DNA of 64,000 bases from Verrucomicrobiota bacterium (GTDB lineage: Bacteria; Verrucomicrobiota; Verrucomicrobiia; Opitutales; Opitutaceae), in assembly GCA_019136515.1 (NCBI GenBank), contig JAGVUB010000156.1, forward strand, positions 1 through 64,000, written 5' to 3'. A model generated the notes under the pieces. That model was not told the DNA's origin and searched no databases. It worked only from the letters and a program-made list of their open reading frames with translations. This document shows positions 3,867 through 40,805 of this stretch, piece by piece. Position numbers and translations under genes: made by a program. The stretch's first letter is position 1, and every line of letters begins with the position of its first letter.

Positions 3867-4659
3867 GGGCCGATCCGACGCCGTGCTCTGCGGCTCACGC
3901 CTGTCGCGACCGCGCGAAGACCGGTCCTACTTGCCCGCGGTGACCACGGATGGACACCGATCGACAGAGACCCTGTAGCCGGCCTCGGCGCGGCCGGCTA
4001 CAAGGGCCGATGGTCGCCGTGATTCCAGACGGCTGAGCGACTTCGTCGGCCAGCGACGAAGCAAGACGCCGCTCGATCAAGCAGCGCCACCACAACGCCC
4101 GCGATCAGCGGGCCCGACGACAACGCCCCAGAGCCGATGAGGCGAAGGACTTTTCCAAGGCCGCGCCATTGGCGCGGCCCATCAGTGGTTCCAACACTCC
4201 GGGGATTGAAGCCTTGGCGGTTTTCGCTAATCGCCCCGCGATCAGCGGGTCCGGCCACGACGGAGCGATGGTCGCACCCCATCGCCACCAAGGAACTGCA
4301 TCAGCGTTGATCAGCGTTTATCAGCGGTTCCACATTCCGGAGGCGCTCGCCACAGATGAACACAGATGAACACAGATGGACGCAGATCAGGCGGCCGGTC
4401 CGCCCACCCGACTGGACGCGATAGATTCACACCAGCTCCCGGTCCGGCGCTGCCGCTCATCACCGCCACAAAGCGGAGCTCGCGCCGTGCTCTGCGGCTC
4501 ACGCCTGTCGCGACCGGTCGAAGACCGGTCCTACTTGCCCGTAGGTCCAGTCTCCGACTGGACGCCCTGGGTCCACGCCTGCTCACGAGCCCCGCCATGC
4601 ATCGCGCCGTCATTGGTTGCTCACACCCGCCGGGGCCGGTCGCAGACCGGCCCTACACC
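3867..4659. repeat. Repeat-filled gap with tandem CACAGATGAA units and hairpins
   Basis: No gene is seen. Bases 3976-4002 form a GTAGCCGGCC / GGCCGGCTAC hairpin. Bases 4031-4230 copy about 2454-2655. Near 4350-4385 the unit CACAGATGAACA is repeated in tandem, ending CACAGATGGACGCAGATC. Bases 4512-4563 hold two palindromes in a row (GACCGGTC...GACCGGTC, then GTCCAGTC TCC GACTGGAC), and 4633-4653 repeats the 15-35 hairpin. Confidence 0.75.
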
Positions 4660-6750: not shown

Positions 6751-6912
6751 CGCCGGCCATCTCAGCGGGGCGAGGGCGTTCCCGCGAGCTGGAACTCGGT
6801 CCGACGTAGGTCCAGTCTCCGACTGGACCCCGCCGGGTCACGCCAACTCCCGCGCCCCCACCGCCCCGCATCGCCACCGCAGGCCGGAGCTCGCGCCCCC
6901 CGCCTTGGTGGA
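6751..6912. repeat. Intergenic palindrome (GTAGGTCC family)
   Basis: Bases 6809-6829 are GGTCCAGTC TCC GACTGGACC, a 9-bp perfect stem with a 3-base loop. The right flank (GGGTCACGCCAACTCCCGCG and beyond) resembles the right flank of the copy at 12527-12547. Confidence 0.8.
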
Positions 6913-12252: not shown

Positions 12253-12674
12253 GAACTGAAAACGGCTGACCGGTTTGCACATATCTTCGAATTCGAGAAC
12301 CCAGCACCAAGGACCGCAACCAATCCGCGGGCGGGGTCTGCATCTTTACCAATTTGAGATACGGTCGCCGCCGCCGTTTTCGCCCCGCGCCCCGGGCGCA
12401 ATTCGATAAATCCCGTTCATCGCCACCCATGCGTCCGCCCTTTTGATACGCGAGACTGAGCTCGCGCCGCCCCCTGCGGCTCACGCCCAGCGCGACCGGT
12501 CGAAGACCGGCCCTGCTTGCCCCGTAGGTCCAGTCTCCGACTGGACCCGGCCGACCCACGCCGACTCCCGCGCCCCACGCCACTCCCCGCCCGGCAGCGC
12601 CACCGCAGACCGGAGCGCACGCCGTCCCCTGCGGCTCACGCCGGAGGGGCCGGTCGAAGACCGGCCCTACGTGG
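12253..12674. repeat. Upstream region of propeller operon with composite palindromic repeats
   Basis: No gene is seen. Bases 12459-12547 form a composite element: a GAGCTCGCGCCG...GCGGCTCACGCC leader, GACCGGTC GAA GACCGG at 12494, then GGTCCAGTC TCC GACTGGACC at 12527-12547. The same order occurs at about 4480-4563. Bases 12647-12667 are GGGCCGGTC GAA GACCGGCCC. The less GC-rich stretch at about 12253-12420 should hold the promoter of the minus-strand propeller pair. I could not fix its boxes. Confidence 0.7.
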
Positions 12675-29593: not shown

Positions 29594-29665
29594 GTAGGAG
29601 CCTGCTTGCAGGCGATTCCGTGTTCCACGTCACTTGCCCCGGATCGCCTGCAAGCAGACTCCTAC
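29594..29665. repeat. Inverted repeat pair (GTAGGAG...CTCCTAC)
   Basis: A 23-base arm at 29594-29616 (GTAGGAGCCTGCTTG then CAGGCGAT) pairs with 29643-29665 at 22 of 23 positions, with a 26-base spacer. Each arm also contains the small palindrome CTGCTTGCAG. This is the layout of a REP doublet. It lies between two minus-strand genes. Confidence 0.85.
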
Positions 29666-37927: not shown

Positions 37928-38007
37928 GTCCGGTCTCCGACCGGACACCGCCGATTCCAGCCGTGACCGCCGGCTCACGTGTTCGGGCGTCCAGTCAGAG
38001 ACTGGAC
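37928..38007. repeat. Two palindromes of the GTAGGTCC family
   Basis: GTCCGGTC TCC GACCGGAC at 37928-37946 and GTCCAGTC AGA GACTGGAC at 37989-38007, between the cheA start and the helicase stop. Note the matched change in both arms (A to G with T to C), a compensatory pattern that preserves the stem. Confidence 0.85.
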
Positions 38008-38033
38008 CTACTCGCGGACTGCATGATCACGCC

Positions 38034-40805
38034 TCAGTACGCCCCGATCGGTCGCAACTCGACCAGCCGCAGCACCACGCCCTGGGCCGCGCGCGAGGCG
38101 TTGAGGTCCACCGCGAAGACCAGCTCCCAGTCGTTCGCCTCCTCGGGATCGACGAGCACCTGCGCCACGGTGAGTTCGTTGGCTTCACGGTTCTCCTCGA
38201 CCCAATGGGTGTGCCCGGCCGCGCGTCCCGCCGGGTCGAGCCGGAACCGCCCGCGCGCCTCGAAGTACGGCGCGAACCGCTCCTCCAGCTGCCGCACCGC
38301 CACCTTCTTCGCCAACTCGATGCTCTCGCCAAGAACGGCAGCGACCGGCGCCATCTCCGCCTTTCCGACCTCCGCCGCTGGTCCTCCGTCTTCCGTCTTT
38401 CCGGTTTCCGCTCTCCGTTCTCCGGTTTCCGCCAGCCGCTCCGCCGCCGCCTCCCAATCGCGCACGTTCACGTCCTGCAGGAAGCCGAAGATCGCTGCGC
38501 GGATCTGTCGCCGGAACGCCGGCACGTCGCGCGTGAGGTCGTAGCTCGACGGCCGCGCCGGTTTGTCGCCGGTCTCCTCGGCCACGAAATCGGGGTTTCG
38601 CATCTTCTCCCACTCCTCGAGCAGCGAGGAGTCGATGCCGCGGATCAGTTCGCGGAAATACGTCTCCATTTCCAGGACTTCCTCGGTCTTGCACGACTCC
38701 GGCACGGTCTGGGATAGCACTTTCCACGTCTGCGAGAGGTGCCGCAGCAACAGTCCCTCCATGCGCTCCAGCCCGTAGTCGCGCACGTGCTCGGCGAACG
38801 ACTGGTAGCGCTCGAACATCTCGCGCGCGATCGACTTGGGCCGGATGTTCTCGCCCTCGATCCATGGATGCGCCGCGGCGAAGCGGTTGAACGTTTCGTA
38901 CACGAACTCGCGCAACGGCTTCGGGTACTCGACCTGCTCGAGCTTCTCCATCCGCTCGTCGTACTCCACGCCCGCGGCCTTCAGCTCCGCCACGAGCTCG
39001 CCCTTCAGCTTGCTCACCTGCTGGCGCAGGATCGCGTCGGGATCCTCGACGATCGACTCGCACAACGTGAGCACGTCGACGGCGTACGTCGGCGACGCCC
39101 GGTCGAGCAGCGGCAACGTGTCGAGCAGCCACAGCGAGAGCGTCTGGTGCAGCGAGAAATCCTCCTGGAGTTCCACGTTCACGCACAGCTTCCGACCCGT
39201 CGGGCGCGCCTCCAGTCCCCTCATACCAGAGACCAACAGAGTCTCTACGCCCCCGCTCATCCGCTCTCCTCCGTCCGCCGCACCGTCCGGTGCGGCGGAC
39301 CTACGTTTCGCCGGCCACGGCGAAACGAACTCCACGATCTTGCGCTCGATGAGCGAGCGGAAGAGCTGCCACGTCTTCTTCCGCAGGTAACTCTTCCGCG
39401 GCGCGGTCTCGTGGCACGCCGCAATGATCGCCCGCATCGCGCGGCAACCGTCGCCGTCGCGCGCGAGCACCTGCAGGAGCATGCCGTGCGAGACGTCGAA
39501 GTGCGACGTGAGCACCTCCGGCGGCGCGGTGCGCAGGCGCTCCAGCGTCTTCTGGTCCCAGCCGACGAAGCCCTCCGGCGGGCGCTCCTTCACAAGCTTC
39601 TTCTGCTTCTTCGGGTCGCCCGCCGCCTTCTCCTCGGCGCGCTTGTTGGCGATCATGTGCTCCGGCGCCTGGATCACGACGTAACCGACATTGTCGTACC
39701 CGCGCCGCCCCGCCCGACCGGAGATCTGGCGGAAATCGCGCACGCTGAGGATCGCCGACTTCTGGCCGTCGTACTTCCAGAGCTGCGTGAACAGCACCGT
39801 GCGGATCGGTACGTTGATGCCGACGCCGAGGGTATCCGTGCCGCAGATGACCTTCAGCAGGCCGCGTTGCGCGAGCTGTTCGACGAGCACGCGGTACTTC
39901 GGCAACAGGCCCGCGTGGTGCACGCCGATGCCGTGGCGCAGCCAGCGTTTCACTTCCTTGCCGTACGGGCTGTTGAATTTGACCTTCTCCAGTTCGACCC
40001 CGAGCGCCGCCCGCTCCTCGCGCGTGCAGATGTTCAGGCTCATCAGGTCCTGCGCCGCCTCGCTGGCCGAGCGCTGGGTGAAATAGACGAGGTAGACCGG
40101 CGCGCGCTGACCGTCGAGCAGCGCCTGCACCTTCTCGGCGAGCGGCGTCTCCGAGTATTCGAACTCCAGCGGCACCGGCCGCCGGTCGCCGCGCACCGTG
40201 ACCGACTCCGCGCCGGTCAGCCGCGTCATCTCCTCCTCGAAGAACGTCGTCGTCGAGAGCGTGGCCGACATGAGCAGGAAGCGCGCGCCGGGCATGGTGA
40301 GCAGCGGCGTCTGCCAGGCGTAGCCGCGCTCGCGGTCCGAGTAGTAATGGAACTCGTCCATGATCACCGCGCGGATGTCGCTCTCGTGGCCGCGGTGCAG
40401 CGCGATGTTGGCCAAAATCTCGGCGGTGCAGCAGAGCACCTTCGCCTGCGGGTTCACCGAGGCGTCGCCGGTCATCATGCCCACGTTGTCCGGCCCGAAG
40501 TCGCGGCAGAGCGAGAGGAACTTCTCGTTCACCAGCGCCTTGATCGGGCACGTGTACACCGAGCGCTCGCCGGCGCACAGCGCGCGGAAATGCATCGCGG
40601 CCGCCACGAGCGATTTGCCCGAGCCGGTGGGCGTGTTGAGCACGACGTTCTTGCCCGCGAACAGCTCCAGGATCGCCTCCTCCTGCTCCGGGTAGAGCGA
40701 GAGCCCGCGTTCGCCCATCACCGTGAGGAAACGGTCGAGCACCGCGTCGGCATTGTACGGGCCGGGCAGCGGCGCGAGCGGGTGGTTCTGGGCGGTGGCA
40801 GTCAC
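38034..40805 (-). CDS. Ski2/Mtr4-like DExH-box RNA helicase (DUF3516-type)
   Basis: 923-residue superfamily 2 helicase. Motif I TPTGSGKS (58-65), II DEFH (150-153), III SAT (180-182), the C-terminal RecA motifs [16 protein letters not shown] and [13 protein letters not shown] are intact, followed by a long helical C-terminal region of the kind called DUF3516 in actinobacterial homologues. Ski2-like proteins unwind structured RNA or DNA for decay or repair. Two odd segments interrupt the protein: residues about 496-533, encoded by palindromic repeat DNA (39228-39246 and 39273-39300), and residues about 788-812 (repeats of AETG and E-rich units) encoded by a TTCCG-rich simple repeat. Both keep the frame. 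Confidence 0.88.
39228..39300. repeat. Palindromic element inside the helicase gene
   Basis: Two hairpins lie in the coding sequence: AGAGAC...GTCTCT (39228-39246) and GTCCGCCGCACC GTCC GGTGCGGCGGAC (39273-39300), a 12-bp perfect stem. On the minus strand the latter is preceded by GTAG, giving the same GTAGGTCC opening as the intergenic family. The reading frame is kept. Confidence 0.8.

Follow-up and report, generated by a model that had tools for sequence, protein, structure and literature searches.

A putative REP-like palindromic insert translated in a loop of a Ski2/Mtr4-like helicase from an Opitutaceae genome

The helicase gene and its insert

The window (the whole stretch of 64,000 nucleotides analysed here) comes from a metagenome-assembled genome, G000, which comprises 4.1 Mb in 202 contigs at 94% completeness; among named genomes, MAGs of the Opitutaceae are its nearest relatives. 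On its minus strand, at positions 38034..40805, it carries a gene for a helicase of 923 aa, with Pfam matches to PF12029 (E 7e-147) and PF00270 (E 7e-20). The DEAD, Helicase_C and DUF3516 domains are all present, which places the protein in the Ski2/Mtr4-like class, and its relatives of known structure, both by sequence and by fold, are Mtr4, Ski2 and Hel308. Alignment with the helicases of G001 and G002, two genomes of the same genus and the nearest relatives (helicase identity 96% and 89%), revealed a net insert of 111 bp, or 37 codons (codons 499-535; about 39201..39311, minus strand), that has no counterpart in either of them: across this site both read IVEFVPP[LA]PNGRKLRVN, with FVPP[LA]PNGRK at the core. 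The left junction is ambiguous by 3 codons, and it is equally good to draw 40 codons (39204-39323) in place of 3 native ones. The reading frame is intact and the gene is otherwise whole at 923 codons. A first-pass annotation had described about 38 extra residues that do not break the frame and are expected to be missing from close relatives; the intact frame, the extra coding sequence and the absence in G001 and G002 are all borne out, and the exact count is revised to a net 37 codons. The codon adaptation of the insert is 0.29 versus 0.72 in the remainder of the gene, which suggests that this segment has not been coding for long. A search for a target-site duplication at the insert found nothing convincing, and no insertion signature can be read there. 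Judged by the alignment with its closest known relatives, the species gained the insert recently, after the split from them. Near the C-terminus of the helicase there is a second variable segment, a purine-rich tract (GGAAACCGGAAAGACGG...; 38378-38409, minus strand), which is longer in G002.

Three hairpins were found in the region of the insert, all on the minus strand. Hairpin 1 (39273..39304) consists of GTAG followed by GTCCGCCGCACC-GGAC-GGTGCGGCGGAC and has a perfect stem of 12 bp and a loop of 4 nt. Hairpin 2 (GTAGAGACTCTGTTGGTCTCT; 39228..39248) is weak, with a stem of 6-7 bp, and has the same orientation. GTAG lies immediately 5' of both, and the two stand in direct order with no CTAC partner. 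This pair, including the perfect 12-bp stem of one member, had been reported in the first-pass annotation and was located as described; the third hairpin, CGTTTCGCCG-TGGC-CGGCGAAACG (39304..39327; 10-bp stem), which spans the left insert junction, had not been named there. As DNA, the region folds into a much more stable structure than its dinucleotide-shuffled versions (z = -6.8). When the insert was shuffled among synonymous codons, its minimum free energy was not significant (z -0.3), because the preferred codons of the genome are themselves GC-rich; this test, non-discriminating in a GC-rich genome, was replaced by a test of stem length, in which a perfect stem of at least 12 bp was reached in 34 of 5000 synonymous shuffles. 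In a 464-kb sample of the genome, divided into coding and non-coding DNA with a simple home-made gene finder, hairpin 1 is the sole perfect hairpin of such size in predicted CDS, and nine others lie in non-coding DNA.

In the AlphaFold2 model (44 sequences, mean pLDDT 73) residues 494-539 are unstructured, with pLDDT about 32-42, and form a loop flanked by the short strands 491-493 and 540-542. From its position, this loop probably corresponds to the wing of the helicase's winged-helix domain, and the 37 inserted residues are most likely a disordered extension that is neutral for the protein.

GTAG repeats and transposases of the genome

The genome contains about 90 copies of a resident GTAG repeat, GTAGGTCCRGTCTYYGACYGGAC. 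Within the window, a scan for repeats and their positions located GTAGGTCC copies at 4541..4563, 6806-6828 and 12524-12546 (plus strand), and a further member of the family (GTAGGTCCAGTCTCTGACTGGAC; 37989..38011, minus strand) directly follows the stop codon of the helicase on the 3' side, where it forms an inverted pair with GTGGGTCCGGTCTCCGACCGGAC. In the 464-kb sample GTAG-tagged hairpins are enriched, numbering 63 (57 of them non-coding) versus 10-25 for five other tetranucleotide tags; they belong to many stem types, some of which are singletons. Hairpin 1 shares the GTAGGTCC...GGAC frame with the ~90-copy family and differs from it in stem and loop. It is single-copy in its exact form, both in its own genome and across the 252 genomes of the family, and searches of the same genomes with the insert yielded no more than short matches, either by chance or to part of a hairpin; of the matches inspected, most lay in ordinary GC-rich DNA. 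The earlier statement that the palindrome shares its GTAGGTCC opening with the intergenic family holds for that opening and no further; with a different stem and loop and a single copy, membership is not supported. Two other repeats were noted in passing: an inverted pair, GTAGGAGCCTGCTTGCAGGCGAT / ATCGCCTGCAAGCAGACTCCTAC, at 29594-29665 of the window, which resembles the Pseudomonas-type GTAGGAGC REPs (e.g. in PMC2817692), and a tandem array of GGAAACCG in predicted non-coding DNA of another contig of this genome (C2:33571-33620).

As criteria for GTAG-tagged REPs we used a palindrome with a terminal GTAG (or GTGG/GYRG) tag, a size of 20-40 bp, a stem of 5-13 bp, a loop of 2-20, repetition in the genome, the inverted pairing known as BIME, the presence of a RAYT/TnpA-REP gene, and a cognate RAYT with the same palindrome at its flanks. 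REPs (repetitive extragenic palindromes) are defined by repetition. The window element has the tag as well as the size, stem and loop (12 bp and 4 nt), and its genome encodes Y1_Tnp proteins, including a REP-associated transposase; the hairpin is not repeated, and the two GTAG hairpins of the insert are direct rather than inverted. According to Di Nocera et al. 2013 (PMC3733652), inverted pairs are frequent in REP families and not obligatory. Since the hairpin is single-copy and has only the GTAGGTCC...GGAC frame in common with the resident family, we call it REP-like and place it in no named REP family.

The mobilisation of REPs is attributed to HuH transposases of the RAYT/TnpA-REP type, which recognise GTAG together with a single-stranded hairpin (PMC2817692, PMC8266576). 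There are 13 Y1_Tnp matches in the genome; one of them, L069 (G000:C170:66224-66493), is a REP-associated tyrosine transposase (NCBIfam NF047646, REP_Tyr_transpos, 102 bits versus a cut-off of 80) that sits about 2.2 kb past the right end of the window. Several Y1_Tnp/transposase genes are flanked by GTAG, GTGG or GGAG palindromes, and the flanking palindromes differ among the loci L065, L068, L071, L072, L073 and L074 (GGAG, GTGG, GTAGGGACG, GTAGCGA), which suggests that more than one REP system is present, indeed several. None of the Y1_Tnp loci examined in this 94% complete genome is a RAYT flanked by GTAGGTCC palindromes.

In-frame palindromes in other genomes and genes

The helicase is present in 183 of the 252 family genomes. 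The homologous loop is most often 11 aa long (11-14 aa in most family members), with an overall range of 10-102 aa, and many of the long loops owe their extra DNA to a tagged, in-frame palindrome, of differing GTAG, GTGG and GGAG types: GTAGGGCCGG..CGGCCCTAC in G005, GTAGGGGCGCAGTC..GACTGCGCCCCTAC in G113, GTAGCGGCGAGCGCC.. in G106, GTGGGGCCG..CGGCCCCAC in G032, G026 and G249, and GGAGCGCGGGC.. in G132, G104 and G137. The loop of the G136 helicase (L143) contains a 42-bp unit of the GTAGCGGCGAGCGCCAGCAAGCC type in seven tandem copies, each encoding 14 aa and all in frame. Tagged inverted repeats with arms of at least 8 occur in 14 of the 34 distinct loops that measure 20 aa or more, versus 139 of 2173 control windows of the same length (6.4%). 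There are also long loops without a palindrome, e.g. L034, L131, L158 and L160, and the peptide inserted in the window's helicase is common to no other loop in the survey. Of the five relatives' inserts tested, four are clearly present in multiple copies in the genome they come from, with at least about 14 places in G005, at least 8 in G106, at least 5 in G113 and at least 14 in G032, helicase copy included; the G137 insert was found in at least 2 places. These counts are lower bounds, with 40 candidates scored per genome. On a quick tree built without the loop, with palindrome types labelled by eye and long loops preferentially fetched, the presence of a palindrome requires 16 changes of state, of which at least 8 are forced by well-supported branches, and its type requires 21. 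Palindromes have thus landed in this loop recurrently, by repeated and independent insertions in other Opitutaceae. In the genus g26 a second loop of the helicase also bears a tagged hairpin (GTGGCACGGGTCTCCCGACCCGTG in G027). One relative's helicase copy (G084:C6:46495-47110) is interrupted by several stop codons and is probably a pseudogene.

The 464-kb sample of the window's genome contains three further genes with tagged palindromes in predicted CDS, encoding a VWA-domain protein (with an inverted pair), a DUF748 protein and a B12/radical-SAM protein, and another tagged-palindrome match at C2:102750. The radical-SAM gene (G000:C2:118643-120391; homologues L284 in G002 and L285 in G001) provides a second hot loop: at the same site there is GTAGGACCGGTC in the window's genome and a different GTAG palindrome, GTAGCGGAACCGTTCCGGTTCCG, in G002, both in frame, and the G001 homologue has a short loop and no palindrome. 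The DUF748 homologue in G002 has a different loop that lacks the palindrome of the window's genome. A search of other coding regions, proposed at the outset as a check, gave a divided answer: the exact palindrome of the helicase recurs nowhere, and other in-frame GTAG palindromes do occur.

Frame-preserving insertions are tolerated in the helicase loop. It is possible, if somewhat doubtful, that translated REPs land preferentially in this loop throughout the Opitutaceae, and that palindromes of different types have reached it many times independently. Should target choice be at work, and not mere tolerance, REP transposition and its target preference could be read from protein alignments.

Origin of the insert

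We consider it probable that a REP-like mobile palindrome pair was inserted into the helicase loop and is now translated in frame. A GTAG-tagged, hairpin-forming pair, putatively mobilised via single-stranded DNA by a RAYT/TnpA-REP HuH transposase, would have entered a solvent-exposed, sequence-tolerant loop of the Ski2/Mtr4-like helicase; its length and reading phase would keep the frame open, with the translation of a 37-residue disordered extension as a result. Selection may retain only those insertions in the loop that preserve the frame, and the extension itself would be neutral.

The insert could instead be ordinary non-REP DNA, a product of recombination, filler or loop expansion in which GTAG and the hairpins arose by chance, given that a hypervariable loop accepts any in-frame DNA. 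The single-copy state of the hairpin in its own and the 252 family genomes, the 10-102 aa range of loop lengths and the long loops that lack a palindrome would all fit this explanation. Against it, GTAG directly abuts a 12-bp stem that is perfect and has the GTCC of the resident family, no other perfect 12-bp hairpin was found in the predicted CDS of 464 kb, and bona fide multi-copy palindromes occupy the identical loop in relatives; we regard it as unlikely. Assembly or binning is a conceivable source of error in a metagenome-assembled genome of 202 contigs at 94% completeness, but the insert is exactly in frame in an otherwise intact gene of 923 codons, and comparable inserts turn up in genomes assembled independently, some of them in a single contig (G005); we regard an artefact as very improbable.

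Hardly more probable is an adaptive origin, in which diversified loop extensions would be selected for changing how the helicase binds RNA or its partners. The length does change again and again at one loop of the Ski2/Mtr4-like fold, and the G136 palindrome has been amplified to 7 in-frame units of 14 aa, as such selection might produce; most family members, however, keep a loop of 11-14 aa, the inserted peptides have no overall sequence in common, the inserted segment is predicted to be disordered, and similar palindromes occur in the unrelated radical-SAM protein. Insertion of a REP-like palindrome pair remains the explanation that we favour.

Relation to known palindromic elements

The Rickettsia palindromic elements (PMC10969869), to which the insert had been likened, are palindromic DNA in frame within proteins, and the resemblance holds for this in-frame carriage; the window insert is also absent in relatives. 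It does not extend to membership: the tag, the sequence and the phylum differ, and the peptides here are not conserved. RPE-4/6 are CGTC-tagged REPs, and RPE-1 is a longer element with a conserved peptide (PMC3733652; review PMC10969869). With its GTAG tag and unshared peptide, the insert was rejected as a member of the RPEs. The REPtrons of TnpA-REP/RAYT (PMC2817692, PMC8266576) are alike in combining GTAG with a hairpin, and the genome has palindrome-flanked transposase genes, but the Y1_Tnp loci examined include no REPtron that carries the GTAGGTCC palindrome of the window. The way in which REPs are spread by RAYTs is still an open question (PMC8266576).

The closest precedent is the set of intragenic GTAG REPs reported in PMC3733652. 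They lie within ORFs, are most abundant in Opitutus terrae, and have RNA helicases as some of their targets. Such GTAG/GTGG elements typically add 20-30 aa, and the recB genes of two Xanthomonas species carry a REP at about the same site. The likeness comprises tagged palindromes in frame in ORFs, the same bacterial family and RNA helicases as targets; the window hairpin differs in being single-copy. The kind is therefore already known from 2013, and the first-pass description of the insert as a rare case does not apply in this bacterial family, where the survey also found the same loop hit many times. The main text of that paper contains no description of one loop hit repeatedly across many genera. 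New here are the window example, the empty sites at the level of the genus and the repeated use of one helicase loop across many genera. In one conserved gene, species with an empty site and species with an occupied one alternate along the tree, and this yields insertion events that can be oriented against known empty sites and could be used for studying junctions, target choice and frame constraints, and for testing whether proteins gain disordered segments via REPs.
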